Shown here: positions 696 to 38,746 of the stretch, one piece after another
Layout: every line of letters starts with the position of its first letter
How positions within the stretch are numbered: the first letter of the stretch is position 1
From: a virus
IMG/VR virus record: IMGVR_UViG_3300032046_000082
Coordinates: 1 to 39,185 of that record
DNA: 39,185 bases
Reading direction: 5' to 3' (one strand)
The notes under the pieces: generated by a model
What the model saw: the letters and a program-made list of their open reading frames with translations, nothing else
Database searches by the model: none
Told to the model about the DNA's origin: nothing
Translations under genes and position numbers: made by a program

Positions 696-705
696 TAATA
701 AATAC
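696..705 (-). promoter_or_regulatory. GTATTTATTA element, putative late promoter of the sheath gene
   Basis: Exact GTATTTAT core read toward the sheath gene, 60 bases before its ATG. It sits back to back with the plus-strand copy at 741-750, so the divergent genes would each have their own element. Confidence 0.6.
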
Positions 706-740
706 TTTTTAATCCGTCAAAATCATTAATTTTGTAGATT

Positions 741-750
741 GTATTTATAA
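741..750 (+). promoter_or_regulatory. GTATTTATAA element, putative late promoter
   Basis: Exact core in gene sense, 18 bases before the ATG at 769, followed by an A-tract. There is no Shine-Dalgarno sequence between it and the start codon. Confidence 0.65.
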
Positions 751-768
751 AAAATAATAACCACGACT

Positions 769-2811
769 ATGGGTAGTAAATCATTCAGAATTCAAACCAC
801 TGCTGGTGGTAGTGATAAATACTTAAAAGTTCAGCTAGAGCAAGAAGTAGACCTAGTAGAGATATTATCCTTGAAAATTAGTCAAAAAGACCTCTATGCT
901 AGTTTTAATGGTGATTTCGGTGTTTTAGTGGGTAGAGTTATCGCAAATGGTGGTGTTGGTATTCCTAACGCCAAAGTTTCTATTTTTATACCCATTTCTG
1001 AGGATGATAAGCTCAATTCCGACATATTATCGATCTACCCATACTCTACACCTAGAGATAAAAATCTTGATGGAGTTAGATACAATCTTTTACCTAGAGT
1101 AGCTACAAATAATCCCTTTCTTATTGCAGGAGAGTATCTTCCTGTTGTTCCAATTGGCACATTCCCAACTAAAGAAGAAATCACAACTAATCAGACATAT
1201 ATTGAAGTCTTTGAGAAATACTACAAGTATACCACAGTAACGAATAATTCTGGAGATTATATGATATATGGTGCACCTATCGGTAATCAAACAGTACATA
1301 TGTCTGTTGACATTACTGACATTGGAAAGTATTCAATGAATCCATCAACGATGATAACTAGTTTAGGTTATTCGGCAAATTTATTTAGTGATAATGGAAC
1401 TAAAGTAAAGTTCAGTACTGATTTGGATACATTGCCAAATGTAGAAACACAAGAAATCGCTGTGGATATAAAATCATTTTGGGGTGATGATGTAAATTTC
1501 AGTATAGGAATTACTAGACAAGACTTTAAGATACGTGCAACATTAGTAGGTACATTTACATTATTTGGATCAGCTTTTACTGATAATCAGGGAGCTACTT
1601 TTGGACAGGGTGGTAGTGGTGTCCAACAACTCTATAAAATGGCTGCAAATGACTTAGGACGTTCAATGGCAACAAAAAGAAATGGAATAATAAACGAAAC
1701 TATCTTTTACATTCCACCAACAATTAGCGATGCTATCATTGCGGGTGGAACATTTAACACAACAACGGACTATAAAGTTTTGGATTCTTCACAGTATTCC
1801 ACTTATAAGGCCAACGGTGAATTCGTATATATTATACCTTGTAATAGAAAAAAAATTATTACAAAAGATGATGGAAGTGAAGTTGAAGTTGATCATACTA
1901 GCCCCATTGGTGTCTTTACTGAGTTCGTTGGGTTTACAGTTTTCTCCTACGGAGATTTAATTCAATTACCTGTAGATCATCAAGGAGATTTAAATTCAAA
2001 TACTGCGAATGCAAGCAGATTGATATTGAAATTTCCACAAGATACATCAATAAATTTAACAGCAGATAATACTTTTGGTTCTAATGAAAGTAATGCAACA
2101 AATGAGGTGTGGAGAAAACAGCACTATATTTTTCAAGGGTCAAAATTTTATAGTATTGCTAGATTCATGGGAACTAGAGGTATCACAGGTACTAATCCCG
2201 GTGATACTCATACTCAATTTACTAATAATCTAAACACTGATCCTAATTTAAATGTTGGACTTGTAATAGCACAAGGTGGTGGAAGTGGTGCAAATGCACC
2301 CTATTATGAATTTCCTTCTAATCTAACTCTTTCTAGTGATTCCAATCCAAAGCGTCAATTATTCGGTGTGGAGTGGTTAAATTTTTGTGCATACTTCCCA
2401 CAAATTACATATTATCCCGGTAGAATAACAAATGATGGTAATGCTGGTGTTACTACATACATGACTACAGAAGACAGTAGTACATTTTTTCTAAATGACA
2501 ATGCTCAATTAATTGCAGATAGTAAGAAAAACACAAAATGGTTTGGCAGATCGGACATAAACAGAACGGCATTCATTAATGTTCCAAAAGAAGACATTCT
2601 GAATATCATAACTCAAACAGAATTAGGAGTATCTCCGCAAGGATTTTATAATACACAACCGCCATATAACATGAATCCATTAATTGGAACTGATTATAAG
2701 GGATTGACTGGAACTAAGTATTTCTACAAAGGATTGAGTAGCACAAACGAAGTTGCAATCAATGGAAATGCTGATGTATTCCTGTATATGAGATCATTAA
2801 ATATTATCTAG
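769..2811 (+). CDS. Large virion/baseplate-type protein with a carboxypeptidase-regulatory-like domain
   Basis: 680 aa. Residues about 45-75 (GVLVGRVIANGGVGIPNAKV) followed by NNSGDYMIYGAPIGNQTVHM near residues 160-180 form the paired halves of a carboxypeptidase-regulatory/prealbumin-like beta-sandwich: a 'G.V....G.PI..A.V' strand, then a 'T...G.Y.I...P.G' strand. The phrase VDITDIGKYSM follows. The rest is Asn/Thr/Ser-rich beta-type sequence with glycine-rich loops and no catalytic motif that I recognise. Its position beside the sheath gene and behind a late-type element suggests a structural protein of the tail or baseplate, possibly fibre-associated. The gene ends convergently with, and overlaps by 8 bases, the lipoprotein gene. 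The virion role is inferred; the domain call is moderate. Confidence 0.6.
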   Translation: MGSKSFRIQTTAGGSDKYLKVQLEQEVDLVEILSLKISQKDLYASFNGDFGVLVGRVIANGGVGIPNAKVSIFIPISEDDKLNSDILSIYPYSTPRDKNLDGVRYNLLPRVATNNPFLIAGEYLPVVPIGTFPTKEEITTNQTYIEVFEKYYKYTTVTNNSGDYMIYGAPIGNQTVHMSVDITDIGKYSMNPSTMITSLGYSANLFSDNGTKVKFSTDLDTLPNVETQEIAVDIKSFWGDDVNFSIGITRQDFKIRATLVGTFTLFGSAFTDNQGATFGQGGSGVQQLYKMAANDLGRSMATKRNGIINETIFYIPPTISDAIIAGGTFNTTTDYKVLDSSQYSTYKANGEFVYIIPCNRKKIITKDDGSEVEVDHTSPIGVFTEFVGFTVFSYGDLIQLPVDHQGDLNSNTANASRLILKFPQDTSINLTADNTFGSNESNATNEVWRKQHYIFQGSKFYSIARFMGTRGITGTNPGDTHTQFTNNLNTDPNLNVGLVIAQGGGSGANAPYYEFPSNLTLSSDSNPKRQLFGVEWLNFCAYFPQITYYPGRITNDGNAGVTTYMTTEDSSTFFLNDNAQLIADSKKNTKWFGRSDINRTAFINVPKEDILNIITQTELGVSPQGFYNTQPPYNMNPLIGTDYKGLTGTKYFYKGLSSTNEVAINGNADVFLYMRSLNII

Positions 2812-3328
2812 TGAATTGATTCACCACTACATATCCCAAAGTATTCACTTTTGATGCTTTTATTAAATTTGGCGAGATGTCTGAAACATTAATGATAAAC
2901 GTATCCCCTTGTGAAAGGGTAAAGGTAACAGTACCATCAGAATTCTGAATAAGTGTCCAAGTTATATTAGGGTCTGTTTGAGAACTTGAAGGTGGTAGAC
3001 AAGGATAGAATGCAGAGACATTATTAATTCCACTAAAGGTGTAAATAGGTTCGACAGTTACACTTTTCCAATTTGTATTAGTGAACAATCCAGCAACGGC
3101 CAATTCAGTTTTAGCACATGTCGATGTTGTAGCTGATTTTCCAGTTGAGATTTGCGTAACTGTAACATCTTTGAATGTCCATACACCTTTAAGCGTAGCC
3201 TTAACTTGATCGAGATTCGATACTACAACAGGCCCAGTACTGGATGGTGTAGGGTCTCCAGATTTTGAACAATTTGAAAACGTGATTGCTAGTACAGCAA
3301 ACAACATCAAGAAGGCGTAATTTTTCAT
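2804..3328 (-). CDS. Phage-encoded lipoprotein, lipocalin-like
   Basis: 174 aa. It begins with a Lys and a hydrophobic stretch ending AITFSNC, with Cys20 as the likely lipidated residue, then a Ser/Asp/Pro linker (SKSGDPTPSS). This is the usual look of Bacteroidota outer-membrane lipoproteins, although the residues before the Cys (F-S-N) are not an ideal lipobox. The mature part contains LKGVWTFKDVTV and alternating beta-like strands, resembling the small lipocalin-like domains of Bacteroidota lipoproteins. It stands alone, convergent with the virion gene to its left. A host-envelope lipoprotein on a phage could block receptor or superinfection, but nothing in the sequence proves this. Only a degenerate late-type element (CATTTATTA near 3361-3371) is visible upstream. 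Confidence 0.65.
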   Translation of the reverse strand: MKNYAFLMLFAVLAITFSNCSKSGDPTPSSTGPVVVSNLDQVKATLKGVWTFKDVTVTQISTGKSATTSTCAKTELAVAGLFTNTNWKSVTVEPIYTFSGINNVSAFYPCLPPSSSQTDPNITWTLIQNSDGTVTFTLSQGDTFIINVSDISPNLIKASKVNTLGYVVVNQFTR

Positions 3329-3377
3329 GGTTTTAGCTTTTTTCTAATTATACGCATAAACATAATAAATGTTTCAG

Positions 3378-4223
3378 TTATTCACCTAAATTTTCAAAAA
3401 ATTCTTTGTTATGATCAATAAAATCCTTATCGAACTTAGCTAAGTAAAGTGTTTTAGCTTTTCTTAATTGATCAATTGTTAGTCCTTTTACACCTCTCAT
3501 ATCTGTTTTATAGAGACTTGCATTTTCAAAATCAGCACCCATTAAGTAGCTATTACGTAAATTAGCTTCCATTAGATATGCATCTCTGAAATTGGTTTTG
3601 ATCAAAAAAGAGTTTTCTAGATCAACCTTAATTAAGAATGCGTCAGTAAAATTAGCACCACTAGCATATGCGCTTTTTAAGTTAGATTGATTCAAATTAG
3701 AATTTTGAAAATTAGTTTGGTTTAGACGTGCATCTTCAAGCACTACATTGATCAAAGAAGAGTTCGAAATATTAGCTGAGTTCAAGTTCGATCCCTTCAA
3801 ATTTATGTAGTTTAAATTTGTGTTACATAAATAGCAATTTACTAAGTTAATCTCATGAATATTGTGTCTGTTAAGACGTTTTAAATTTCCGACAGTACGA
3901 AAAGCTGCTTCGGCAGATTCCCATAATCTAAAGTCATCTATTTCATCTTTATAAGTACGAATACGTTGATTTTTTTCGCCATTCTGATTTAACCAAAATA
4001 AAAGTAAACCAATTAATGCAATGTCGAACATCATACCATGCCCCTGAATGAGAAGTTCGTATTTAATTGTTTGAAAATCATTAACATAATACGGAATGCT
4101 CAATCCGATGACAAAAATGGAGATAAATAGAAGAAGTATCGATGTGGTTAGCATTGGTCTTTCCACAATATAATTATGTGTTTTCGTTAGTTTTTGAAGG
4201 ATTTCTTTAAGGAATTGGATCAT
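3378..4223 (-). CDS. Membrane-anchored pentapeptide-repeat protein
   Basis: 281 aa. Two hydrophobic segments, about residues 26-45 (TSILLLFISIFVIGLSI) and 66-81 (MFDIALIGLLLFWL), are followed by a short charged linker. From about residue 118 to 250 there is a run of pentapeptide repeats of the A(N/D)Lxx type (LNLKGSNLNSANISNSSL, ANFTDAF, ANLRNSYLMGADFENASL), which fold as a right-handed quadrilateral beta-helix. The C-terminus is short and charged. The gene has its own late-type element one base before the ATG. Membrane pentapeptide proteins are common in bacteria with few assigned functions; some soluble ones mimic DNA and inhibit gyrase. A host-membrane or exclusion role is inference. Confidence 0.8.
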   Translation of the reverse strand: MIQFLKEILQKLTKTHNYIVERPMLTTSILLLFISIFVIGLSIPYYVNDFQTIKYELLIQGHGMMFDIALIGLLLFWLNQNGEKNQRIRTYKDEIDDFRLWESAEAAFRTVGNLKRLNRHNIHEINLVNCYLCNTNLNYINLKGSNLNSANISNSSLINVVLEDARLNQTNFQNSNLNQSNLKSAYASGANFTDAFLIKVDLENSFLIKTNFRDAYLMEANLRNSYLMGADFENASLYKTDMRGVKGLTIDQLRKAKTLYLAKFDKDFIDHNKEFFENLGE

Positions 4224-4224: not shown

Positions 4225-4234
4225 CAATAAATAC
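4225..4234 (-). promoter_or_regulatory. GTATTTATTG element abutting the start of the pentapeptide-repeat gene
   Basis: Exact core in gene sense, only one base from the ATG at 4223. If it works as a -10-like element the mRNA would be leaderless or nearly so. Confidence 0.6.
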
Positions 4235-4251: not shown

Positions 4252-4261
4252 CTATTTATAA
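4252..4261 (+). promoter_or_regulatory. CTATTTATAA variant element
   Basis: One-base variant (C for G) in gene sense, two bases before the ATG at 4264. With 4225-4234 it forms a back-to-back divergent pair in a 40-base gap. Confidence 0.55.
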
Positions 4262-4263: not shown

Positions 4264-5439
4264 ATGGAAGAAGGTTACTCGATTCAATTAGGCCAAACAC
4301 AGAATGTTAATTCAATTAACGTTGATGAGTATTTTTATACAAATCTACAATCTCCATCGGTTGAACTTCTTCCATATGATCAGACCTCTGTCATCAACGC
4401 ATCACAATTATTCGATGATGAACGACAAGCCAGTGAGGTTTATAGAGTTTATGGAACTGTTAATTTTATGTCTATTATCAACGGACTGAAAAGAAACTAC
4501 ACTACCGTTGATGATTTTTTCACAAGACCTAGAATTGGTGATGAAGCTAATAATCTAACCAAAAATTTACCATATTGTTTTGATGTTTACCTTTGTCGTG
4601 CGTTAGGAAATACATTTACTGGAAGTACAGTACTGGTAAGCGGAAATACTAAAATAAACAGCACAACATATCAACTGAAATATGAAATACTAACTAATCT
4701 TACCTCCTGTGAAATTTATAAATCTGGTTTTGGAAAAAACATATACTATGATCAACAATATTCATATGATTTCAATGTAGATATTGATATTGCAAATCAA
4801 TACGATAGTTTTGGAAAACCGTTGACTAACCTATATTTATTCTTTAATTATCGACCCTCAGTAAATGGTTTAAGTCAATCAGAAACAGTACAAAAAAGAA
4901 CATTTAGTGGTAGTAAAGTTAGCAGACCATATACAACATATGTTGCTGGTGATGTTATCGAAGGTGATTGGGTTTTCTATTTACCTGAAAATTTCGAAGA
5001 AATTGTTACTCAACGTCAAGAATTTTACGTTACGTTTTATTGTACTGGTGCTGTTTCAGCACTACAATTTAAATACAATCCACTAATACCTATCAAACTT
5101 AGGGATTTTGGAGATGAATTAATCACTGCAAATATTAGCGGAACCAGTGAGACGGATCAATCAATTCCAAACTATGCAGTAAAGTTAGATAATGATGGTA
5201 ATTATTTATGGAAGGATTTACTTCCAAATGGGTACATTGATCCATTATCAAATAGGGGTGTCAACTATTCTTTTGTAAATGAAAGACATTATGTTTTTTC
5301 TAATGTTGTATTAGGATTAAATACTGAGTTAAACGATGCAGCTACTGCAGCCTTGTTTGCAACAATAGAATTTGGCCCTAATACAAAACAATACAATAAA
5401 CCAACTAGTGATTTAAATACGTTAGGAAACAAATGTTAA
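4264..5439 (+). CDS. Putative virion structural protein
   Basis: 391 aa, not recognised as a named family. It is rich in Tyr, Asn, Thr and Phe with beta-type periodicity. The C-terminal third contains LWKDLLPNGYIDPLSNRG followed by VNERHYVFSNVVLG, which has the look of a conserved virion-protein segment. No signal peptide, membrane span or enzyme motif is visible. The start is fixed by a late-type element two bases upstream. The gene overlaps the next by 7 bases, implying translational coupling, and both sit between sheath and gp15-like genes. A baseplate or tail role is likely but inferred. Confidence 0.55.
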   Translation: MEEGYSIQLGQTQNVNSINVDEYFYTNLQSPSVELLPYDQTSVINASQLFDDERQASEVYRVYGTVNFMSIINGLKRNYTTVDDFFTRPRIGDEANNLTKNLPYCFDVYLCRALGNTFTGSTVLVSGNTKINSTTYQLKYEILTNLTSCEIYKSGFGKNIYYDQQYSYDFNVDIDIANQYDSFGKPLTNLYLFFNYRPSVNGLSQSETVQKRTFSGSKVSRPYTTYVAGDVIEGDWVFYLPENFEEIVTQRQEFYVTFYCTGAVSALQFKYNPLIPIKLRDFGDELITANISGTSETDQSIPNYAVKLDNDGNYLWKDLLPNGYIDPLSNRGVNYSFVNERHYVFSNVVLGLNTELNDAATAALFATIEFGPNTKQYNKPTSDLNTLGNKC

Positions 5440-6197: not shown

Positions 6198-7028
6198 TTA
6201 ACCAAATGTAGTATCAAAAGTAGTATCGAAACTTCCCGATGTTTGTGCTAATACTGGTGTACTTATATTGTCCTTAACAGTCACAGATAATTTAGGTAAT
6301 CTAGTTGTTTTAACGATTTGAAATTTCTTTTCATTCTGAATGAATCCAAGAAGTTTTATTTGATAGACACTAACTTTCATTCTATCACCCTTGATGTCCT
6401 GCACATTATCTTCATTGGTTTCTTCCAAATGGATTGCAAATGGTGTACCTTTAACCCAACAATAAGCCTGTCTACTGGCGAATAGATTTAAAATTTGTTC
6501 ATCATAGATGTTTGCATTTTCTTGATACTTGGTGAATAATCTTACTTCATAATACATGTCTACAAATGTTGGTTCTGGAACTTTGAATCGTAAGTTAATA
6601 ACTTCACCTTCGTCTAAGATAGGTACATCAACATAGGTAAAGGTGCGTGGTTGCGGAACGATATATCTCTTTCCAACTCTGGTTCCAAGTTCTTTTTTAG
6701 TACGCTTAATTGTGATGAATGGAGTAAGAATATTTTTGTCGTTATCAGTAAATTGCCAAGTTTTAGCAAATTCACCCCATCTTTCTTTCGATAATAAAAA
6801 AGCAGGTACATCTTTTCCATCTAGAATTAATTTCATATCTTTGTTATTGACATAATCAATAATTGCAGCATCTAAGTCTCTTAATTTGATGGTACGTGGT
6901 AAATAGTTGGTTTTTTGATCCGTTTTTTGCATTAACTGCTCAATTCGATCAAATCCATATTTTAAATATTCAGTACCAATTTTGACTGGATTTAGTATAA
7001 AGTCTGTCTTTTTTCTTGGAAGTGCCAT
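6198..7028 (-). CDS. gp15-like tail terminator / sheath-stabiliser protein
   Basis: 276 aa, the size of T4 gp15 (272 aa). The central region (PEPTFVDMYYEVRLFTKY, then QENANIYDEQILNLFASRQAY) follows the gp15 pattern in which a '.Y.L.IFT.Y..d...I.EQIL..F.P' segment follows a proline-rich strand. Upstream, RTFTYVDVPILDEGEV also fits. In T4 this protein caps the tail and joins it to the neck. The N-terminus (MALPRKKTDFILNPVKIGTEYLKYG) has no signal or membrane feature. A late-type element lies 13 bases before the ATG. The call comes from a remembered family pattern, not alignment, so it is moderate. Confidence 0.6.
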   Translation of the reverse strand: MALPRKKTDFILNPVKIGTEYLKYGFDRIEQLMQKTDQKTNYLPRTIKLRDLDAAIIDYVNNKDMKLILDGKDVPAFLLSKERWGEFAKTWQFTDNDKNILTPFITIKRTKKELGTRVGKRYIVPQPRTFTYVDVPILDEGEVINLRFKVPEPTFVDMYYEVRLFTKYQENANIYDEQILNLFASRQAYCWVKGTPFAIHLEETNEDNVQDIKGDRMKVSVYQIKLLGFIQNEKKFQIVKTTRLPKLSVTVKDNISTPVLAQTSGSFDTTFDTTFG

Positions 7029-7041
7029 TTAATAATTTTAA

Positions 7042-7051
7042 CTATAAATAC
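7042..7051 (-). promoter_or_regulatory. GTATTTATAG element, putative late promoter of the gp15-like gene
   Basis: Exact core in gene sense, 13 bases before the ATG at 7028. The same bases read TATAAATAC toward the plus operon at 7060, but only 8 bases separate it from that ATG and no plus-sense GTATTTAT is present. Confidence 0.6.
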
Positions 7052-7059
7052 TTGTTTTT

Positions 7060-7413
7060 ATGCTATTAGAAAGAAAGGAATACAAAAGAGAAACAAACAA
7101 AACGACATTAATTGAAGCTTTCTACGATTCAAGCAATATCGTTAAGACTAATTATATCCCTGAACAAAATTTTATGTTCATCTTTTTTAAAGGTGGGTCG
7201 GTTTACTCATATTCGAATATTGATCGGGAACTCTATGAGAAGTTCGAAAATTGTGAATCTCAGGGAAAATTCTTCATTGCCGAGATCAAGAAAAAGCCAC
7301 AAATCTACAATTATTTGAAGGAATATAAATTGTATGAGTTTGAAAAACAGGATATTAGCGATATAATCGAAAATTTGAAATCAACCCAAAAACCCAAAAT
7401 TGAGAACATTTAA
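7060..7413 (+). CDS. KTSC-domain small protein
   Basis: 117 aa. From about residue 24, DSSNIVKTNYIPEQNFMFIF, then FKGGSVYSYSNIDRELYEKF and SQGKFFIAEIK, fits the KTSC domain: Ser near the start, a 'L.V.F..G..Y.Y..V....Y..F' core, then 'S.GK.F...I'. This domain is named after the C-terminus of some lysyl-tRNA synthetases and is widespread as a small stand-alone protein in phages; its biochemical role is not established. It is the first gene of the plus-strand operon running to 13473. No ribosome-binding site is visible before the ATG. Confidence 0.7.
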   Translation: MLLERKEYKRETNKTTLIEAFYDSSNIVKTNYIPEQNFMFIFFKGGSVYSYSNIDRELYEKFENCESQGKFFIAEIKKKPQIYNYLKEYKLYEFEKQDISDIIENLKSTQKPKIENI

Positions 7414-7448
7414 GTAGATTCTGCGTATAATAGGAAAAAGGATATTTT

Positions 7449-9293: not shown

Positions 9294-9294
9294 T

Positions 9295-10399: not shown

Positions 10400-10402
10400 A
10401 TT

Positions 10403-13201: not shown

Positions 13202-13215
13202 AATGAGAACTAAAA

Positions 13216-15126: not shown

Positions 15127-15139
15127 AATCGCTTATTTT

Positions 15140-15149
15140 ACATAAATAC
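15140..15149 (-). promoter_or_regulatory. GTATTTATGT element, putative late promoter of the neck operon
   Basis: Exact core in gene sense, 13 bases before the ATG at 15126. The plus operon at 15159 begins only 9 bases from its other side and has no plus-sense copy. Confidence 0.6.
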
Positions 15150-15158
15150 TAGAAATCT

Positions 15159-19220: not shown

Positions 19221-19230
19221 TAATAAATAC
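19221..19230 (-). promoter_or_regulatory. GTATTTATTA element, putative late promoter of the membrane cassette
   Basis: Exact core in gene sense, 11 bases before the ATG at 19209 and about 35 bases past the capsid terminator, so the cassette is restarted separately from the capsid transcript. Confidence 0.65.
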
Positions 19231-21033: not shown

Positions 21034-21043
21034 GTATAAATAC
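21034..21043 (-). promoter_or_regulatory. GTATTTATAC element, putative late promoter of the capsid gene
   Basis: Exact core in gene sense, 42 bases before the capsid ATG. The leader between them is almost entirely A and T, without a Shine-Dalgarno sequence. Confidence 0.65.
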
Positions 21044-22566: not shown

Positions 22567-22576
22567 TTATAAATAC
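22567..22576 (-). promoter_or_regulatory. GTATTTATAA element, putative late promoter of the scaffold-like gene
   Basis: Exact core in gene sense, 27 bases before the ATG at 22539. Confidence 0.6.
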
Positions 22577-23386: not shown

Positions 23387-23396
23387 TAATAAATAC
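23387..23396 (-). promoter_or_regulatory. GTATTTATTA element, putative late promoter of the protease gene
   Basis: Exact core in gene sense, 17 bases before the ATG at 23369. It is back to back with the plus-sense copy at 23436-23445. Confidence 0.6.
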
Positions 23397-23435
23397 TAGT
23401 CCGATACGAATAAATTGTTGAAAAACTTAGTTTTA

Positions 23436-23445
23436 GTATTTATTA
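23436..23445 (+). promoter_or_regulatory. GTATTTATTA element, putative late promoter of the hub operon
   Basis: Exact core in gene sense, 11 bases before the ATG at 23457. Its position supports that ATG over an in-frame TTG at 23415, which would put the element inside the coding region. Confidence 0.65.
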
Positions 23446-30210: not shown

Positions 30211-30220
30211 TAATAAATAC
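30211..30220 (-). promoter_or_regulatory. GTATTTATTA element, putative late promoter
   Basis: Exact core in gene sense, 14 bases before the ATG at 30196, in a 41-base gap downstream of the portal stop. Confidence 0.6.
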
Positions 30221-30237: not shown

Positions 30238-32301
30238 TTATTCAATTTTATCAAGGGTTGTAGATATATCATCATCCAAACCTTTAAATATATCTTCATC
30301 TTCCTTCACTTCCTCATTCAATTTTCTAAGTTCTTCCTTATTTTCTTTATATTCAAAATTTTCGGGGTTTGAATGATCGGTATTGAATTCACCTTGATTA
30401 TACAACAATTTGTCGATTTCGTTGATCATCATTTTAGCGTTTTTATTCAATTCATCATTTTTAACCTTAAAGGCTTCTTCGGTATTCTTTTGACTTTCAA
30501 CATTTTGTCTAGTTACCAAATTGTTTAAAAGTGCATCAAAATTAGACTCACTTAAGGCTGGCTTACCTTTAATACCCTTAGATTCTTGTTTAGGGGCTGC
30601 TGGTGCGCCTCCTGCTGGAGCAGGTGCTCCTGCACCACCTGCGACTAATCCTTGCGGCTCAGGCAATTGTGAAGGGCTTTGAGGGGCATTTGTTGCTCCT
30701 GCTGCAGGTGGCTGATTCTGTTCTGGTTGACCCTCACCTTCGGCAGGTGGTGGCCCTTGTTGCATTGCTGCAGCATTAGGATTACCATATTTCTGATCAA
30801 TGTCATCAAAAATACCAGTTTTAGGAATAACAACTGCAGTATCTTGCAATTCTTGGCTAATAGCTCTTTCCATTCTTTGGTTTTTGAAATCTTCAATGAT
30901 TTCTTTATCTGACCAACCAAGAATATTTCTCTTTGCCCATGTGTGTGAAGATGCTGCGATTCCAGAACCTTCATTTCTAGTGATTTCAGTATACAATTGA
31001 ATTTTAGCTGTAAGAGTTTCTGTCTTTAACTTATCTGCTTGACTAGATGGATTCGTTAATGATAAACTGAATTCATGAAGATCATCCTCATACCCTTTAA
31101 GATACAAATGAACGATAGCCATCTTGTTTAATTCTTGAAGTAATGCTTGTTGAAGTCTATTAATCTTTTTAGCAAAACGTACATCCATTTGTGCAAGGTT
31201 TTTACCTTCACCTGCTGATCCTGAAAAACCAAGAAATGGTTTAGGGATACCTAGACCACTAAATAAATTATCACGCAAATATGCAATGTCTGCAATAGCA
31301 TCAAGGTTTGTAGCTCCCGGTAAGGTTTCAATAACAGTACTCTTACCATCACGTACTGGAACAAAAATATCTTCATCGTTTCCCAAGATATTAAACCTGT
31401 AATCGATCTGACCTGTGTTGTTATAAGTTTGTGTTTGCTTCTTAAATTTAGTAGCCACCTTATACACATACGCTTCAATATCTTTATCTTCTAAATTACC
31501 AACTTCGATTTTATAAACTCTCTTTTCTCCTGCTCTAAGTATACGATAAGTTAGCATAGCGTCTTCTGCCATAACTAATTGTCTGAATACTCTTCTTACT
31601 TTATTTAATACTGACGAACCGTATGGAAGATACTTATCATCTCCAAGCAATCTAAAATGTGCTATTTCGAATAGGTTGAATTCATCTCCGGTAGTTCTAT
31701 TTCTAAAAATGGTTCTGGCCTTTCTATCTTTGACCTCATCTTTTCTTTCAACATCAAAATTTACTAGCTGTCTTACATAACGAATACCCTTTCCCTTTTC
31801 ACCAAGCATATAGACGAAATTGTCTCCATACTTCGCAAGGTTTCTAGCCCAAAACGGTAAATTAACGTTTACATTAACAACACCATAGAAAAAATCTTCG
31901 AGAATAGTTTTAATTCTCTCTTTCTTAGAATAGATATTCAACATTTTTCCATTGTCACCAATGGTAGTTGATTCCTCCGAAAACAAATCCAATGCAGATG
32001 CAATCAATGGGTAATATTCCATACCCTCATAATCGACATATGCTGGCATACGTGCTGCTTCATATTGCATAGCCTTTTGAAAGCCATGCTGTTGAACTTT
32101 ATAGAATTTATCGAAGATAGATTCTCTTTGCTGCATTTCCAATGCTGCTTTTTGAATATCTTCGGGATTTTCTGCTTTGAGAATGATTTTTCTCTTTTGC
32201 TCGTTATCTTTTTCAGCCTGAGCACCAAATCCAAATCCGTCCAAATTCAAGAATGAATTTAATTCGGAATAGATTGTTTTTTTGTTGTTGTTGTCAGCCA
32301 T
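30238..32301 (-). CDS. Portal protein, gp20-like
   Basis: 687 aa; T4 gp20 is 524 aa. The core shows the T4 portal pattern: YPLIASALDLFSEESTT (helical wing entry), INIYSKKE-like strand (MLNIYSKKERI), PFWARNLAKYGDNFVYM, EIAHFRLLGDDKYLPYGSSV, then LVMAEDAMLTYRILRAGEKR and VYKIEVGNL, and the KPFLGFSGSAGEGKNLAQMD segment. The dodecameric ring at the head vertex carries the packaging motor. A long C-terminal tail (about residues 510-687) is Pro/Gln/Ala/Gly-rich, then Lys/Glu-rich, is not part of the T4 portal core, and contains an LSE/S site. The terminase gene lies immediately upstream. Confidence 0.9.
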   Translation of the reverse strand: MADNNNKKTIYSELNSFLNLDGFGFGAQAEKDNEQKRKIILKAENPEDIQKAALEMQQRESIFDKFYKVQQHGFQKAMQYEAARMPAYVDYEGMEYYPLIASALDLFSEESTTIGDNGKMLNIYSKKERIKTILEDFFYGVVNVNVNLPFWARNLAKYGDNFVYMLGEKGKGIRYVRQLVNFDVERKDEVKDRKARTIFRNRTTGDEFNLFEIAHFRLLGDDKYLPYGSSVLNKVRRVFRQLVMAEDAMLTYRILRAGEKRVYKIEVGNLEDKDIEAYVYKVATKFKKQTQTYNNTGQIDYRFNILGNDEDIFVPVRDGKSTVIETLPGATNLDAIADIAYLRDNLFSGLGIPKPFLGFSGSAGEGKNLAQMDVRFAKKINRLQQALLQELNKMAIVHLYLKGYEDDLHEFSLSLTNPSSQADKLKTETLTAKIQLYTEITRNEGSGIAASSHTWAKRNILGWSDKEIIEDFKNQRMERAISQELQDTAVVIPKTGIFDDIDQKYGNPNAAAMQQGPPPAEGEGQPEQNQPPAAGATNAPQSPSQLPEPQGLVAGGAGAPAPAGGAPAAPKQESKGIKGKPALSESNFDALLNNLVTRQNVESQKNTEEAFKVKNDELNKNAKMMINEIDKLLYNQGEFNTDHSNPENFEYKENKEELRKLNEEVKEDEDIFKGLDDDISTTLDKIE

Positions 32302-32330
32302 TTTTATAGTTTTTTATAGTTTTTTATATA
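32301..32330 (-). repeat. Three 10-base tandem repeats in the portal leader
   Basis: The plus-strand unit tttttatagt occurs twice in a row and a third time as tttttatata, which merges into the late-type element. Read in gene sense this gives repeated AAAAAACTAT units between element and ATG. A single AAAAAACTATA follows the elements at the terminase gene and at 38696-38705, suggesting that the unit is functional. Confidence 0.7.
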
Positions 32331-32335
32331 AATAC
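32326..32335 (-). promoter_or_regulatory. GTATTTATAT element, putative late promoter of the portal gene
   Basis: Exact core in gene sense, 24 bases before the ATG at 32301, followed by tandem AAAAAACTAT units. Confidence 0.65.
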
Positions 32336-32358
32336 TTAGGAAAACCCCAAAAGCACGT

Positions 32359-34371
32359 TTATCTACGGTTTTTGTCAAGACCTTTAAAAAGCCAAGAATG
32401 ATCCGCATAAGGGTTATTTTTGTGTGATCTAAAATCTTCGGGCATACCATGTTTTTCCTCATTAGGTTTAATGTGCGAATTATCGTTCACAACCATAATA
32501 GCGTTTAGCATACTTTTGATTTTTTCGGTATTATCACCTTTCTTCATCATATCACAATTAAGGACATAAAGACCTATAGCAAGGCCCATTATATCATCAT
32601 CGTGAAAAGTTCTTCTGTGATCAGCTAATCTTGTAGGATTCTCACTAGTAATAAATGTCTTGAATTCATTAGTCATTCTAACTGAACGGATAATAACATC
32701 TTCCATACGTATGCTTCTTTCCATTTCTTGAAGAACAATAGGTCTATTATTTCCTATCATGAATCCCGGGATCAAATCGACCTTTACCATATGTCCACCA
32801 CCAATATTTTTCTCAACAGTTTTCACATAGACATTCAATCTATCACGTGTTGGTTTGTGTTGAATTTCTGCATAGTGTAAATTGATATAACCAAAATTCT
32901 TCAAGCTCTCAATAGTTGAAACACCATATCCACCACTAACATCAATAACACAATAGGCATTATTATATCTGGTTCCATAATAATATGCAATTTCAGCAAG
33001 TTGTTGTGGTGTTACCTTTCCATAGTATTCAGCAACTTGCTCAGATACTCTACGTTTAATGTCTTTAGTTTTTTGAATACCATTCTCGATATATGTCTTT
33101 GGTTCTATCAAATCACGATACTTTAACATGTTCAATGTAGAATAGTCATTTCCATACCCACTAGCAACATCGAGAGCCATTACATACTGAGCACCCTCAA
33201 TTGGGTCTTCAAAAATATACATCAACTTATCGTTGTACTCGGTTCTGATGGGTTGTCTTAATTCATTATCTTCAATTCTTTTAATGAACTCTTCATTAAT
33301 AAAGTTATCTCCAGAACCCAAAAATGAACATAAAATTTCTTGAGAAAATCTTCTCATATCACCGTTATAACCAGCCTTTGCATTTTCGAACCAAGGACTA
33401 GTTGCTGAGTATCCATCTAGAATTAATTTTGCACGTTGATCCTTAGAAAAATTAACATCAGTAATTCTTATCTCACTATCTTTAAGCTCATTTTTAACCC
33501 ATTGCAATCCAACATTGTATCTTGGATCGTTATACCACCATAATTCAATTGCTTTAAATGGTTTACCTTTTGTTCTTGCTGTTTCAAAAGTCTTATAAAA
33601 TATTGGGTCTAATCCATTTGGAGTAGATACAAAGATTACTCTACCACCTGTGTTTCTTACAGCAGCACCAGCAGATTCCCAAAACTTTTCACCCTTTTCT
33701 GTCCACGCAGTTTCATCCCAAAAAATTAGTGTTGGGGTCGGGCCTCTAAGTTTGGTAGCAGCAAATGCTTTCATTTGACTACCATTTGCATATTTCATGT
33801 GATGTGCAGAATCCTTATTACCAACCTTTTGTCTTAGATAAGCAGGACAACCATCAATAAAGTCCTTGATGTCACTCATTAACTCATCACGTGCTGTTTC
33901 AAGTTTATCTGCAATAACTGCAACATATCTATTCTCATTAAACAATACGTACCACGAAATAAAAGCACAAGTTGTTGTTGACACACCAGCCTGTCTGTAT
34001 TTGTTAGCTATATTCTCTTTGTTTTTTTGATAAGAAAGTACTAGTTCCTTTTGAAATTCGAATAGTTTGAATGGTACAATTTGACCACTTTCTCCTTTAG
34101 TTTGGTCAAAGACAGTGAGATAGGTCTCAATGAAATAGATGGGATTGATTGCACACTTAAGGTATTCATCTGTCTGCTCTGAAATTGTAAGAATGTTTGC
34201 TTGTTTGGCAATACCTTCTTTTGTGATGACAATTGGTTGATCAACATATTTTTTTCTGAGTTCTTTTACTTTCTTTTTAAGCTCAATTTTTTTGACTTCT
34301 TCTTCGGTAAGGGGTCGGTCATTATTATCTGGCTCAAAATCTAACTCATCTTCAATGTTTTTCTTAGACAT
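32359..34371 (-). CDS. Terminase large subunit, gp17-like
   Basis: 670 aa (T4 gp17 is 610). After a charged N-terminus, FKLFEFQKELVLSYQKNKEN precedes the Walker A-type loop RQAGVSTT (126-133), with Ser-Thr-Thr after Gly-Val in place of the usual Gly-Lys-Thr/Ser. Walker B plus catalytic Glu is TLIFWDE (214-220), and FVSTPNG is the coupling motif. The C-terminal RNase H-like nuclease has acidic strands at YVMALDVASGYGNDYST, YCVIDVSGG, and HDDDIMGLAIG. This is the ATP-driven packaging motor and headful nuclease. It lies upstream of the portal gene, with two late-type elements in its leader region. Confidence 0.93.
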   Translation of the reverse strand: MSKKNIEDELDFEPDNNDRPLTEEEVKKIELKKKVKELRKKYVDQPIVITKEGIAKQANILTISEQTDEYLKCAINPIYFIETYLTVFDQTKGESGQIVPFKLFEFQKELVLSYQKNKENIANKYRQAGVSTTTCAFISWYVLFNENRYVAVIADKLETARDELMSDIKDFIDGCPAYLRQKVGNKDSAHHMKYANGSQMKAFAATKLRGPTPTLIFWDETAWTEKGEKFWESAGAAVRNTGGRVIFVSTPNGLDPIFYKTFETARTKGKPFKAIELWWYNDPRYNVGLQWVKNELKDSEIRITDVNFSKDQRAKLILDGYSATSPWFENAKAGYNGDMRRFSQEILCSFLGSGDNFINEEFIKRIEDNELRQPIRTEYNDKLMYIFEDPIEGAQYVMALDVASGYGNDYSTLNMLKYRDLIEPKTYIENGIQKTKDIKRRVSEQVAEYYGKVTPQQLAEIAYYYGTRYNNAYCVIDVSGGYGVSTIESLKNFGYINLHYAEIQHKPTRDRLNVYVKTVEKNIGGGHMVKVDLIPGFMIGNNRPIVLQEMERSIRMEDVIIRSVRMTNEFKTFITSENPTRLADHRRTFHDDDIMGLAIGLYVLNCDMMKKGDNTEKIKSMLNAIMVVNDNSHIKPNEEKHGMPEDFRSHKNNPYADHSWLFKGLDKNRR

Positions 34372-34384: not shown

Positions 34385-34394
34385 TTATAAATAC
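34385..34394 (-). promoter_or_regulatory. GTATTTATAA element, proximal putative late promoter of the terminase gene
   Basis: Exact core in gene sense, 13 bases before the ATG at 34371, followed by AAAACTATA as at two other genes. Confidence 0.7.
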
Positions 34395-34470: not shown

Positions 34471-34480
34471 CTATAAATAC
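34471..34480 (-). promoter_or_regulatory. GTATTTATAG element, distal to the terminase gene
   Basis: Exact core pointing at the terminase gene, 99 bases before its ATG, directly after the terminator of the upstream operon. Confidence 0.55.
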
Positions 34481-34499
34481 TCAAAAAATGCAAAACCCG
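34472..34499 (-). repeat. Element-plus-hairpin-arm repeat, copy B
   Basis: Partner of 34386-34412: same TATAAATACTCA start and GCAAAACCCG end, with one extra base and one or two changes between. Confidence 0.75.
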
Positions 34500-34515
34500 T
34501 CACATGAACGGGTTT
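34493..34515 (-). terminator. Intrinsic terminator after the 34560-37414 genes
   Basis: An 8-bp stem (AAACCCGT with ACGGGTTT) with a 7-base loop. On the minus strand TTTTGCATTTTTT follows, overlapping the next late-type element. The plus strand also has a T-rich tail (GTTTACTTTT), so it may act both ways. Confidence 0.7.
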
Positions 34516-34559
34516 GTTTACTTTTCTCCACTTACAATTTTACTATGGAAGATAGCACG

Positions 34560-35066
34560 TTAAAAATCTATTCCATTATCTATCTCGTCATCACCCTCTT
34601 CTACATCTTCTTTATCCAGTACTGGAGTTGCAACAACAGGTTCCTTCACTTCACTTTCTTTAAGCATGATGTCTCTGGTAAGAAACAAATCCTTAACTTC
34701 CGATGCCTTCATGCCATAATGAAAAACAAGAAGTGGAGTTTCATCGTAAAGCACATCATTGTTATCACTCTCAACGTTCTCGTAGGCTAGACAATGGATG
34801 GTGTAATAACCATCAATATATGCCCTATCGTTTAATTCATGCAAACAAATTAAATCAAGTTTTTTTGTTTTAAGAGATAAGACCATATCAATTGATTCTT
34901 GTGGTGGAGCGTCAGCATTTCCATTAGCTGGAACATCATTCCATCCACACGCATCGGTATCAATTGAAGAAGGGTCTTTACAGAATATAAATTCGTAAAG
35001 ACCCTGCCCCTTATTGTCATAACCGATCTTTAAAACATAACAAAGTTTTAGATCGTCTTTATCCAT
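34560..35066 (-). CDS. Acidic protein of unknown function
   Basis: 168 aa, unrecognised. The N-terminal part (LKLCYVLKIGYDNKGQGLYE, then FIFCKDPSSIDTDACGWNDV) looks like a compact alpha/beta fold. The C-terminal 30 residues are strongly acidic (KEDVEEGDDEIDNGIDF) and probably disordered. Its start shares a base with the stop of the 782-aa gene, so the two are co-translated, and a terminator follows. Its place between a probable head protein and the terminase suggests a packaging or head-assembly accessory, without direct evidence. Confidence 0.55.
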   Translation of the reverse strand: MDKDDLKLCYVLKIGYDNKGQGLYEFIFCKDPSSIDTDACGWNDVPANGNADAPPQESIDMVLSLKTKKLDLICLHELNDRAYIDGYYTIHCLAYENVESDNNDVLYDETPLLVFHYGMKASEVKDLFLTRDIMLKESEVKEPVVATPVLDKEDVEEGDDEIDNGIDF

Positions 35067-37414
35067 TATTTTTTGTACTTCGATAACAAATCACTGTTTT
35101 TCTTAATCTCTGCACTTACCATTTCATCAAGTTTCTTTGATAATTTTGATTTAGATGCTTCATTAAGTGAAGGCTTTTTTAAACCTAATTGTTCTTGAAT
35201 TTTAACATTGATGATTGCTCTCAATTTAGCTTTAGCACTTTCAGAAACGTCTTCTTTTTCAGCTTTTTCTTCTTTCTTTTCTTCTGCTTTAGATTCCTTT
35301 TCTGCTTTATTCAATGATTGAGAATCTTTAGCAAAACCGAATTTTTCTTTCTTTTCACCCTTTTCTTCTTTTTCACCTTTATCTTCTGCCTTTTCTTCTT
35401 TCTTCACATTTTCTTTTGTATCGTCATCATCCTTCTTCTCAAAATTCCATGTTTCGTCAACGTACTCCATTACTGGTTCCAATGACTTATATTTCTTAGG
35501 TTTTACTGAGAATGTCTCAACACTTTCAGCAAATCTTTGGAAACCACTTTCAACAACACCTTCTTTAACTTCTGGACTCATGTATTCTGCAATTGTTTGC
35601 ATATCAGCACCAGCATAGTTACCATCACATTCGTTAGCATATCCGTTAACAAGTGATACCATTTCCATGATAGAAACTTCATTCACGTTTTCAGGATTGT
35701 AACCTCTTTCAGCCATATAAGACTTGAAAGGACTTGCTTGTTTAGTTGCATTGCCCATTGCAGCAGCATTAGGAGCACCAGCACCAAGTGCTAATTTATC
35801 TCCTTTTGATGGAACTGCACCAGTAGAACCTGCACCTGCTGCAGTAGCTACACCATTTCCACCTTCATCTTCCAAGCCCATAGCTGCAAGATGTTGGTTA
35901 ATTGCTTCTTCAATTTCGTGATCTTCTGGAATAGCCATTGCCATTTCATCAACTTCACTATCAGCACTAGCACTACTTGCACCAGCATCTGGATTATCTT
36001 CCACACCAACTGGATTTGCAGAAACTGGAGAACCATTTGATTCTTCACCTTCTTCACCAGCTTTTAAAATTTTATTTGAAAGTTCTCTCTTAAGATCGGA
36101 ATCTAGATTAGCAAGTTTGCCATCGAAAGCTGCAAGAATTGATTTCAAGAAACCACCAACCATTTCGTCAGTCAATTCGGTTGCTCTGATTTTTTGACCA
36201 GTCTTACCTACTAATTTCTCTACATCCTTAACTGCTGCGTCATCGCTACCTGCATCACCAGCACCTGCTGTTGCACCCGCATCAGCAACACCTGCTGAAC
36301 CAGCTTCTGGTGATGGCATTTCTGAACCCGCTTCTGCACCAGAGGCATCACCTGCTGGAGCTTCTGCTGATGGTACTTCTGCTGAACCAGCGTCACCAGC
36401 ATCGGCTTTAATATCCAATGCATCTAATGCTGATGCTGCTGCATCTAAGTCTGCTGTTTCTTCACTACCCTGTACTGGAGCACCTGCAGGAGCTTCTACA
36501 GATTGTCCTGCTCCCGGTTCTTCTGGAGATTTTTCTTCTTCACTACCAAAAGTTTCAGCAACAATTGCCTTTTCTTTAGTAGCTAAATCTTTGAAATGTT
36601 TCTCATCACCTAAATCAGCTTTAAGTTTTGTACCTGTATCAGCCTTTTTATTAGTATCTGCAACTTTTTGTGCTTTAGAAGCACCAGTATCATTACCGTT
36701 AATTTTTTCTTTTGCAATTTCAGATTGGCTAGGTGTTGTAGCTTTTGGAGCTTGACCTTTCTTTTCTGTGTCTGCAGTTTCTTGTGCTGTTCCAATATCT
36801 TTTCTATCAGCACCAGTAACTGTTGATGGTTCGTGGAAAGTTTTATTCTTAGCACTTGCATCATCTGATTTATTGCTATCGGCAACACCTTGTGCTTTAG
36901 AAGCACCAGTATCATTACCATTAATTTTTTCTTTTGCAATTTCTGCTTTTGGAGCATTCTCAGCTTTTGGAGCAGCACCAGTAGCCTTTTTGTCAGCTAC
37001 TACTTGTGCATTAGCAATTCCACCCTTATCTGCGTTTGTCTTTGAAAGCAATTGTTCTTCTTCGTTGATTGTTTTTGCTGGATTGAATTTTCTATCCAAG
37101 CTTTCGTTTAATGCGCTAACATAAAAATCTTTGATTTTTGATGCTTCTGCTAAACTATTATACTTGTACTTAAGTTTGTTTTCCAAACCACCAATATATG
37201 TGAAGTGTTCAACAGCAATTTCACCTTTAGTGTTTGAAGACTTGATGTAATAGCTTTGGTCTTCTTTTACGATACCTAGTGCTGAACCATCGTTAGCTCT
37301 TGAATATTCGATCAAGGTCTGCTTGTCCAATGATGTTGACTTAGATGGGGCATCAACGCTGCTCAATTCTCTGAGTCTTTTATAGAAATTCTCTTGGTTT
37401 GAAAATGATTTCAT
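35066..37414 (-). CDS. 782-aa low-complexity protein, probable prohead core/internal head protein
   Basis: A folded-looking N-terminus (residues 1-110) ends in ALNES (101-105), a candidate prohead-protease site. Then follows a long Lys/Ala/Asp-rich region with an internal duplication: EIAKEKINGNDTGASKAQ occurs at 158-175 and again at 232-249, within longer similar blocks. Residues about 290-400 are Ala/Gly/Asp/Ser/Glu-rich and surely disordered. A globular segment (SPFKSYMAERGYNPENVNEV) and a Lys/Glu-rich helical C-terminus follow, with another SLNE/A site at Glu752. No enzyme motif. Composition and cleavage-like sites fit an internal scaffold or head protein. It has a late-type element upstream. 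Confidence 0.6.
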   Translation of the reverse strand: MKSFSNQENFYKRLRELSSVDAPSKSTSLDKQTLIEYSRANDGSALGIVKEDQSYYIKSSNTKGEIAVEHFTYIGGLENKLKYKYNSLAEASKIKDFYVSALNESLDRKFNPAKTINEEEQLLSKTNADKGGIANAQVVADKKATGAAPKAENAPKAEIAKEKINGNDTGASKAQGVADSNKSDDASAKNKTFHEPSTVTGADRKDIGTAQETADTEKKGQAPKATTPSQSEIAKEKINGNDTGASKAQKVADTNKKADTGTKLKADLGDEKHFKDLATKEKAIVAETFGSEEEKSPEEPGAGQSVEAPAGAPVQGSEETADLDAAASALDALDIKADAGDAGSAEVPSAEAPAGDASGAEAGSEMPSPEAGSAGVADAGATAGAGDAGSDDAAVKDVEKLVGKTGQKIRATELTDEMVGGFLKSILAAFDGKLANLDSDLKRELSNKILKAGEEGEESNGSPVSANPVGVEDNPDAGASSASADSEVDEMAMAIPEDHEIEEAINQHLAAMGLEDEGGNGVATAAGAGSTGAVPSKGDKLALGAGAPNAAAMGNATKQASPFKSYMAERGYNPENVNEVSIMEMVSLVNGYANECDGNYAGADMQTIAEYMSPEVKEGVVESGFQRFAESVETFSVKPKKYKSLEPVMEYVDETWNFEKKDDDDTKENVKKEEKAEDKGEKEEKGEKKEKFGFAKDSQSLNKAEKESKAEEKKEEKAEKEDVSESAKAKLRAIINVKIQEQLGLKKPSLNEASKSKLSKKLDEMVSAEIKKNSDLLSKYKK
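36669..36721 (-). repeat. 53-base direct repeat, copy 1
   Basis: Identical except for one base to 36891-36943, exactly 222 bases (74 codons) away and in the same reading frame. It encodes the KEKINGNDTGASKA block of the 782-aa protein. Confidence 0.9.
36891..36943 (-). repeat. 53-base direct repeat, copy 2
   Basis: Partner of 36669-36721; the single difference is a silent third-base change in an Asn codon. Confidence 0.9.
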
Positions 37415-37461
37415 TTGTATATTAGTTTTTAAATTTATTACACTAAGCTTATTAAACTTTT

Positions 37462-37471
37462 TTATAAATAC
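37462..37471 (-). promoter_or_regulatory. GTATTTATAA element, putative late promoter of the 782-aa gene
   Basis: Exact core in gene sense, 47 bases before the ATG at 37414, followed by AAAAAAGTTTAA. It lies between two minus-strand genes, so a plus-direction reading would be antisense. Confidence 0.65.
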
Positions 37472-37516
37472 TATCTCCTAGTTGAAAAATACAATTTTTG
37501 TAAAAAATTATAACAA

Positions 37517-37807
37517 TTAGAGGGTTTTTGTTGTTTCGGGTATACCTGCATCTTTCAACTGGTCTAAAGTGACCTGTTTTGTGGACAGTATTGACTCAAC
37601 TAATGACTTGCTCATAGGCTCTTTTGTGGCGTACTTTTTAAGTATTGCGACCACCGTATCGTTAACGGCTGATGCCTCATTCAATGTAGTCATGGCTGTG
37701 GTAATTTCCTCCATTATTCTTTTGAAAGTAACCTTTTCTTGTTTCTTTTTCTCAATAAGTGCCTTAAATTGAGATTCGGTTATGTAGTAAATTTTAGGAT
37801 TTGCCAT
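37517..37807 (-). CDS. Small helical protein, possible head-processing substrate
   Basis: 96 aa, unrecognised. It begins MANPKIYYITESQFKALIEK, then a basic/acidic helix. TTLNEASAVND at residues 41-50 is a good match to a T4-type prohead-protease site (LNE/A, cut after Glu44), dividing the protein into two roughly equal halves. It has no element of its own and starts two bases after the upstream nucleotidyltransferase stop, so it is in that gene's transcript. Confidence 0.5.
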   Translation of the reverse strand: MANPKIYYITESQFKALIEKKKQEKVTFKRIMEEITTAMTTLNEASAVNDTVVAILKKYATKEPMSKSLVESILSTKQVTLDQLKDAGIPETTKTL

Positions 37808-37809: not shown

Positions 37810-38673
37810 TTATATTTCCATTTTTTGTTCTTTAACTGATAATTTTCTGTCAAAGCTATCATTTTTCAATTTTGATAGCTTATCTAAATAGCCTGAATTT
37901 CTCAATATTTTAAATGTTAAATTTTCAGGTGAATACTCCCCTTCCTTATATAATCCAGATTGTCTCATTTTCTTTATTCTATCTTTAACGACTTTAGCTT
38001 TTCCAGTAACGTCTTCTCCTTTATTGAAGTCATCAACTAAAATATCAATTTTATTTACAATATCGGAGACCTTCATTTGAACATCTGGTTCATCAATACT
38101 TATAAATTTCTTCATAGGCTTTCTAATCCAATCATTCTTCATCACCGAATATACACCAGATGACACGTTCTTTTCATTAGTATTCTGTACATAACATTCA
38201 ACGGTGTGGTCATCAATTTTTACTTCATGCTCTAATGACCACAATTCTTTTTTTGCTTTAAAGAACTCACCAATTATTTCAGGATCAGCATCAATTTCAT
38301 TAAAATCAAATAGAATATGAAGATCAACATCGGAATGTGGAGTGTAGTTGTAATTAGCACTACTACCAACCATTAGAATATCAGAAAACTTCTTATCTTC
38401 TATTTTACAGTATTTGATGAATTCAACAGCAATCTTTAACAATGCTTGTCTTACAACATCTTTCAATTTACCATCCTTATCCCATAATTCAGGATTAAGG
38501 TCATCATTCATCTTCACAGAGGACATATCAATGTCTTCTGGCTTGATAACTTCCGAAATCAAATCCTTAACTGTCTTATCAGTCCAAAATTTACTTGTCC
38601 AATATCTTGGCTTTGCATTTCGTCTGATCATCGGAATGGCTTTATCCTCTCCTTGTTTTGTTTCTATTGACAT
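37810..38673 (-). CDS. Late-type nucleotidyltransferase
   Basis: 287 aa. GSSANYNYTPHSDVDLHI (103-120) is a clear nucleotidyltransferase signature: Gly-Ser, then Ser-Asp-x-Asp with Asp115 and Asp117. The third acidic position is probably Glu159 in TVECYVQ. Before the core, LWDKDGKLKDVVRQALLKIA suggests a conserved N-terminal helical domain; after it a charged helical domain. Unlike the two nucleotidyltransferases in the plus-strand operon, this one is preceded by two late-type elements and sits among head genes. It may be virion-associated or act late, for example on tRNA, protein or DNA; the substrate is unknown. Confidence 0.75.
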   Translation of the reverse strand: MSIETKQGEDKAIPMIRRNAKPRYWTSKFWTDKTVKDLISEVIKPEDIDMSSVKMNDDLNPELWDKDGKLKDVVRQALLKIAVEFIKYCKIEDKKFSDILMVGSSANYNYTPHSDVDLHILFDFNEIDADPEIIGEFFKAKKELWSLEHEVKIDDHTVECYVQNTNEKNVSSGVYSVMKNDWIRKPMKKFISIDEPDVQMKVSDIVNKIDILVDDFNKGEDVTGKAKVVKDRIKKMRQSGLYKEGEYSPENLTFKILRNSGYLDKLSKLKNDSFDRKLSVKEQKMEI

Positions 38674-38695
38674 TTAGTGATTGAAATATAGTTTT

Positions 38696-38705
38696 TTATA
38701 AATAC
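38696..38705 (-). promoter_or_regulatory. GTATTTATAA element, proximal putative late promoter
   Basis: Exact core in gene sense, 22 bases before the ATG at 38673, followed by AAAACTATA as at the terminase gene. Confidence 0.65.
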
Positions 38706-38714
38706 AGAAAAAAG

Positions 38715-38724
38715 CAATAAATAC
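38715..38724 (-). promoter_or_regulatory. GTATTTATTG element, distal putative late promoter
   Basis: Second exact core for the same gene, 41 bases before its ATG and 19 bases from the proximal copy. Confidence 0.6.
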
Positions 38725-38736
38725 TGAACCAAATTA

Positions 38737-38746
38737 GTATTTATCT
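38737..38746 (+). promoter_or_regulatory. GTATTTATCT element, putative late promoter of the right-edge gene
   Basis: Exact core in plus sense, 12 bases before the ATG at 38759; back to back with the minus copies at 38696-38724. Confidence 0.6.

Follow-up and report, generated by a model that had tools for sequence, protein, structure and literature searches.

We examined a recurrent 8-bp element, GTATTTAT, in a 39,185-bp stretch of viral DNA (IMG/VR record IMGVR_UViG_3300032046_000082, positions 1 to 39,185), referred to below, at its full length, as the window. The window (34% G+C, 0 tRNA genes) is a piece of a T4-like myovirus genome. Four of its proteins (capsid, portal, head protease and terminase) have matches among T4-type PHROGs and show 26-41% identity to those of cultured T4-like phages, the nearest of which include Flavobacterium phage immuto and Microcystis phage Mel-JY01. 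Near relatives are present in IMG/VR, two of them of complete size (G1, 371,504 bp, and G2, 366,038 bp), and most of their proteins share 40-87% identity with their window counterparts. A single capsid query yielded 135 contigs of this clade, which consists mostly of uncultured giant phages. We also analysed the capsid-gene neighbourhoods of 80 further contigs (1.42 Mb), and we infer a Bacteroidota host for the phage. Genes in the window, G1 and G2 were called by a simple longest-ORF (open reading frame) script, so some start codons may be misplaced. An earlier, sequence-only reading had listed 18 exact sites and two one-base variants of the element; all of these are present, the minus-strand coordinates given there being those of the corresponding 10-mer.

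Genes preceded by the box

The element, which we refer to as the late box, precedes many of the virion genes in the window; offsets are listed as window/G1/G2 where three values are given. Boxes at 34387..34394 (-) and, distally, at 34473..34480 (-; offset 109) serve the terminase large subunit gene 32359-34371 (-), a PHROG terminase, the nearer of them at offsets 23/23/24. An ORF at 34488-34790 (+) overlaps 34560-35066 on the opposite strand and is probably no gene, the adjoining box being that of the terminase. The portal gene 30238-32301 (-; PHROG portal) has its box at 32328..32335 (-; offsets 34/32/33), the head maturation protease gene 22629-23369 (-; PHROG) at 23389..23396 (-; 27/27/29), and the scaffold-like gene 21070-22539 (-) at 22569..22576 (-; offset 37, in G2 39). 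The box at 21036..21043 (-) lies ahead of the major capsid gene 19312-20991 (-), a position at which most relatives have no box of the gene's own. On the other strand, a box at 23436..23443 (+) precedes 23457-27824 (+), encoding a 1455 aa virion protein (offset 21, in G1 26), and on account of this box the ATG at 23457 is favoured over the TTG at 23415 as the start codon.

Gene 3-635 (-), cut by the window end, is a probable tail sheath gene on the basis of gene order; it is preceded by a box at 698..705 (-), and its G2 counterpart is 38823-41546 (offset 63). In the neck/tail region, gene 6198-7028 (-) has a box at 7044..7051 (-; 23/23/20). A box at 19223..19230 (-; 21/24/25) precedes 18919-19209 (-) in a small membrane-protein cassette, and one at 4227..4234 (-), of a leaderless type, lies only 3 nt ahead of the ATG of 3378-4223 (-), a pentapeptide-repeat membrane protein gene (5 nt in the G1 ortholog). 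This protein has N-terminal hydrophobic stretches; its ortholog stands beside virion genes in G1, and the G2 gene is relocated to 234 kb, without a late box. The nucleotidyltransferase-like gene 37810-38673 (-) has both a proximal box at 38698..38705 (-; 32/32/33) and a distal one at 38717..38724 (-; offset 51, in G2 52). Further boxes are found at 741..748 (+) before 769-2811 (+; 28/29/30), 15142..15149 (-) before 14008-15126 (-; 23/23/23), 30213..30220 (-) before 29405-30196 (-; 24/23/19), 37464..37471 (-) before 35066-37414 (-; 57/58/59), and 38737..38744 (+) before 38759-39184 (+), which is cut by the window end. The two variants are CTATTTAT at 4252..4259 (+), before 4264-5439 (+), a form common in the clade, and ATATTTAT near 18131 (-).

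The metabolic and helicase operons (7060-13473 and 15159-17348) are without a gene-sense box, as had been claimed; this includes the operon of thymidylate synthase, RlaP-like protein and HD hydrolase. Besides thymidylate synthase, the latter operon holds a small HD hydrolase (HD_4; 9295-9822, +) and an RlaP-type nucleotidyltransferase (10807-12015, +).

Enrichment and orientation of the box

We found 20 exact copies of GTATTTAT in the window against 3.5 expected from dinucleotide shuffling (largest value 7 in 100 shuffles). The excess over chance inferred in the sequence-only reading is thus strong, although its estimate of five or six chance matches was slightly high. The crowding of sites into gaps between genes was likewise borne out, as 18 of the 20 copies fall in the 6.1% of the window that is non-coding; two are intragenic, at 815-822 (-) and 10934-10941 (+). 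Upstream regions of the window, G1 and G2 contain 16, 48 and 49 gene-sense copies, whereas dinucleotide shuffling of those regions gives 0.2, 1.1 and 1.8; in each of the three, GTATTTAT ranks first among all 8-mers found ahead of genes. An independent expectation-maximization (EM) search of the window returned AGTATTTAT as its top motif (log ratio 59, versus 26 for shuffled sequence), and the commonest upstream 8-mers in the 80 capsid loci are TATTTATA and GTATTTAT, with CTATTTAT also frequent. Each of the two complete-size relatives has 59 intergenic sites. A whole-genome count, proposed earlier as a check and carried out here on G1 and G2, thus gives strong intergenic and gene-sense enrichment, with fixed offsets at virion genes.

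By automatic gene calls, the 18 intergenic copies in the window comprise 11 that are gene-sense only, five in divergent gaps and two that are antisense only. Where a gene start lies on one side only, gene-sense copies outnumber antisense copies by 35:3 in G1 and 35:2 in G2, and the same count gives 186:23 in the 80 capsid loci. The statement that the box is always in gene sense accordingly stands for tandem genes, but boxes in short divergent gaps (7029-7059, 15127-15158) could serve either side; there, the gene-sense call is made because the offset to the minus-strand gene is kept in the relatives (23/23/20 and 23/23/23).

Orientation matters because the reverse complement, TTATAAATAC, includes the T4 late box TATAAATA exactly, and the sites could in principle be T4-type late promoters on the opposite strand, producing antisense RNA away from the genes. 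This is the least probable of the explanations that we weighed: the offsets to the start codon of the gene faced are fixed, gene-sense-only sites exceed the reverse more than tenfold, and it is towards the gene that the conserved AAA and the leaderless ATG described below are found. The T4 late box TATAAATA shows no gene-sense enrichment, with 0, 3 and 4 gene-sense-only copies in the window, G1 and G2. For Mel-JY01, LR756511, LR756508, SCTP-2, T4 and P-HM1, the EM search yielded only ribosome sites or noise, and k-mer orientation counts were used for these phages instead. ATAAATA is the gene-sense form in T4 and SCTP-2, and TATTTAT in immuto (14:5) and Mel-JY01 (10:1); P-HM1 has too few sites in either orientation. 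The box of the present clade is therefore the reverse complement of that of T4, in gene sense.

Conservation and anatomy of the box

Among 260 reciprocal best pairs of G1 and G2 genes, 28 carry the box in both genomes (5.6 expected), mostly at offsets within 3 nt of each other. As the proteins concerned are 45-86% identical, the retention of box position speaks for selection. On these sequence patterns, the element is almost certainly a conserved, orientation-specific promoter of a large phage clade.

No -35 element was detected upstream of the box: among 117 intergenic gene-sense sites the best upstream signal reaches 0.37 bit. As a positive control, the same scan applied to TTTACGTATAAT boxes gives a clear, ECF (extracytoplasmic function)-like -35 (AAC/AAA, 1.2 bits) 19 nt upstream. 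Behind the late box, A occupies positions +4/+5/+6 in 69/84/86% of leadered sites, and A+T content is 77% in the following 12 nt, versus 70% upstream. Box-to-start-codon distances form a cluster at 3-7 nt (mode 4), none fall at 8-10 nt, and from 11 nt there is a broad range extending to over 100 nt; the earlier count of seven boxes 11-14 bases ahead of an ATG is correct when measured from the end of the 10-mer. In the 3-7 nt cluster, a leaderless subset, the A of the ATG is at +5, the same position as the conserved AAA. Together, the AAA at +4..+6 and the leaderless ATG at +5 suggest that the transcript probably begins with an A some 5 nt past the box; GTATTTAT would then lie at about -12 to -5. 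Host-type and ECF-type boxes have close clusters of their own, at 3-4 and 6-7 nt, in agreement with the leaderless reading.

These distances also bear on whether the box might be no promoter but a signal in the mRNA leader, acting in translation or stability. Bacteroidota make no strong use of Shine-Dalgarno sequences and A/T-rich leaders are common among them, which would suit such a signal. A spread from 3 to more than 100 nt, interrupted at 8-10 nt, is, however, unlike a ribosome site, and boxes only 3-7 nt ahead of the ATG fit better as lying upstream of a leaderless start; we regard a leader signal as highly improbable.

Gene classes and other promoter boxes

In the window and G2, the late box heads the genes for tail tube, ClpP-type head protease, head protease, portal, terminase and probable tail sheath, together with many unknown genes, and it is because of this gene content that we call it late. 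A different set of units, containing rIIA, rIIB, RNA ligase, NAPRTase, QueC and PIF1 helicase, is headed by TAnnTTTG (host-type) or ECF-type boxes. In both relatives, late boxes cluster on one arc of the genome and CGTATAA boxes on the arc across from it (Rayleigh P = 2e-4 and 6e-6, respectively, in G1; 1e-3 and 2e-4 in G2). With each gene assigned to the box that heads its operon, 21 of the 380 G2 genes within 110-285 kb and 86 of the 208 elsewhere come under the late box. The earlier proposal of a late transcription signal thus gains support from the enrichment, the fixed offsets before virion genes and the near absence of the box on the arc of rII, RNA ligase, NAD and queuosine genes, and the promoter very probably belongs to the late class.

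Each relative also has 28-33 intergenic copies of a second type of promoter, AAC/AAA-N(17)-TTTACGTATAAT, whose -35 is ECF-like. They lie across the genome from the late boxes, and the ECF-like sigma factors encoded by the phage itself are candidates for reading them. In the window, ECF-type -10 boxes, GCGTATAA(T), are found at 3348..3355 (-), before 2804-3328 (-), and at 7423..7430 (+), before 7449-7790 (+) at the head of the metabolic operon; the latter is kept in G2 (offset 30). An AAC-type -35 with a CGT-type -10, as in an ECF promoter, is present at the CGTATAA class and not at the late box, nor does GTATTTAT fit the Bacteroidota -7 box TAnnTTTG, sites of which precede other genes. Repeated palindromes also occur upstream of small genes, mostly outside the late arc: CCAGTACTGG inside AACCTTAAGCCAGTACTGGCC in G1 (CCAGTACTGG 88 times, on both strands), and CTTAATTAAG with TGTAACCTT in G2 (82 times, on both strands).

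A candidate sigma factor for the late box

A search with PF00562 (beta subunit) found no phage RNA polymerase in G1 or G2. Both encode several sigma factors, some of them ECF-like: 258579-259112 (-), 141756-142325 (+) and 321015-321560 (-) in G1, and 175395 (+) and 300487-301059 (-) in G2. Both also encode a gp55-like protein (G1 36965-37735, G2 31400-32173; 55% identical), whose predicted model has a sigma-2 fold with VIA Z 9.4 to T4 gp55 (7d7c) and 9-10 to other sigma-2 domains. Its profile weakly matches gp55 of T4 and P-HM1, co-linearly. Foldseek alone gave no match to the model below E 0.1, a PDB sequence search with the profile gave no relevant match, and PHROGs gave one weak sigma match (E 4e-4) and nothing useful for the other gp55-like proteins. 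Within the phage collection, relatives of this protein occur only in immuto (immuto26A_153), Mel-JY01 and LR756508. As immuto and Mel-JY01 have no Sigma70_r2 match, we found no sigma candidate other than the gp55-like protein that is common to the three box-bearing lineages, and this protein probably reads the box.

A gene of 116-135 aa adjoins the gp55-like gene in G1 (36522-36929, -), G2 (32213-32587, +), immuto and Mel-JY01, and possibly encodes a gp33-like coactivator. The gp55-like proteins of G1 and G2 seemed to have a C-terminal clamp-binding motif in common with T4 gp55; it is absent in immuto and Mel-JY01, and we do not claim it.

Two other readers would leave the late promoter itself intact. 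One is a phage ECF-like sigma factor (G1 141756-142325/G2 300487-301059, or G1 258579-259112/G2 175395): both relatives encode such factors, and one pair, 67% identical, lies among late-box genes. However, immuto and Mel-JY01 have the box and the gp55-like gene but no Sigma70_r2 match; ECF sigmas normally use a -35, which the late box lacks, and the CGTATAA class with its AAC -35 is their better partner, so that we consider an ECF-like reader unlikely. The other is an alternative sigma factor of the host, and Bacteroidota do have many ECF sigmas (PMC7366714). Yet phages of Flavobacterium and of a cyanobacterium, Microcystis, both carry this box, and what they have in common is the gp55-like gene; this makes a host factor very unlikely.

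In the interpretation that we prefer, the element is a late promoter of the T4 type that consists of a -10 box only, TATTTATA replaces TATAAATA, and a remotely related gp55-like sigma reads it as part of the host RNA polymerase. The sequence comparisons make this appear probable, but several observations weigh against it. The gp55-like genes lie outside the window; the profile match is weak (E 4e-4, probability 37%); and the structural model is of low confidence (pLDDT 64), its sigma-2 match leaving the C-terminal half unaccounted for. LR756508 has a gp55-like gene, yet TATTTAT is not in excess over the 41 kb that were read, and no gp45 clamp was found in G1 or G2 with PF02916, although a divergent or other-type clamp is possible. 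The expectation that every capsid gene would have its own late box failed, as the capsid gene is usually without one. Some late-box units are non-virion, among them a 1405-aa tRNA nucleotidyltransferase/RNA ligase protein and a glycosyltransferase, and in immuto [AC]TATTTAT is only about twofold more frequent, not exclusive, in the late half (34 forward copies vs 17). The 1405-aa protein, a tRNA nucleotidyltransferase and RNA-ligase-like fusion encoded at G2 323214-327431 (-) (L030:3214-7431), has a conserved late box, which is odd for the late class.

Proposed mechanism and its meaning

We propose that the -10 box of these late promoters is GTATTTAT(A/T)A, and that the host RNA polymerase, once equipped with a T4 gp55-type sigma factor encoded by the phage, would recognise the box alone, with no -35. 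The A/T-rich stretch behind the box would then be opened, with initiation about 5 nt downstream, usually on A. Some late mRNAs would begin at, or within a few bases of, the ATG, and most would carry a leader some 7 to 50 nt long. Other genes would use Bacteroidota host-type TAnnTTTG or ECF-type AAC...CGTATAA boxes. More tentatively, and with somewhat less than even confidence, we suggest that a widespread T4-like lineage, infecting cyanobacteria and hosts of Bacteroidota type, has a late sigma of the gp55 family that is longer than that of T4, a box that is the reverse complement of T4's, partly leaderless late messages, and a programme of three sigmas (host, ECF-type phage and gp55-like).

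A late-gene signal for a large clade would make late operons readable from raw sequence and, with the host-type and ECF-type boxes, an early/middle/late map of these genomes predictable and testable. It would also offer a natural test of promoter reading by a minimal sigma-2 protein, in which the frame TATnnATA is kept and the centre changes from AA to TT, with immuto as a cultured member.

Comparison with known systems

Group 2 jumbo phages have a gp23-type capsid and sigma factors but no RNA polymerase, and few Bacteroidota members are included in the survey that describes them (PMC7824862). G1 and G2 conform to this group in their gp23-type capsid, their phage sigmas and the absence of a detected RNA polymerase; the survey offers no late box. 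The promoter of the Bacteroidota primary sigma is TAnnTTTG (PMC7366714); this occurs in the same genomes before early-type genes and is separate from the late element. In the literature searched, we found no report of a TATTTATA/TATTTAT late box or of immuto promoters. Late boxes of the T4-like phages Aeh1, S-PM2 and KVP40 have been predicted in silico, that of Aeh1 with its first two bases changed (PMC2988020); the box can thus vary, but a TT centre is found in none of them.

The late promoter of T4 consists of one 8-bp box at -10, with no -35 and an A/T-rich downstream region, and is read by gp55 on the host polymerase together with gp33 and the gp45 clamp (PMC2988020; PMC7892883). The promoters described here resemble it in having a single 8-bp box with no -35 and an A/T-rich downstream region, in preceding virion genes that encode T4-type proteins, in the sigma-2-type factor encoded by the relatives and, presumably, in the use of host polymerase. 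They differ in that the gp45 clamp was not found with PF02916 in G1 and G2, that part of the promoters are leaderless, that the sigma candidate is of 256 rather than 185 aa and only remotely similar, and that the box is TATTTATA and not TATAAATA, with the frame TATnnATA in common and TT for AA at the centre. Because it would work alike but fails the literal consensus, we regard the element as a variant of the T4 late-promoter kind rather than a member of the T4 consensus.

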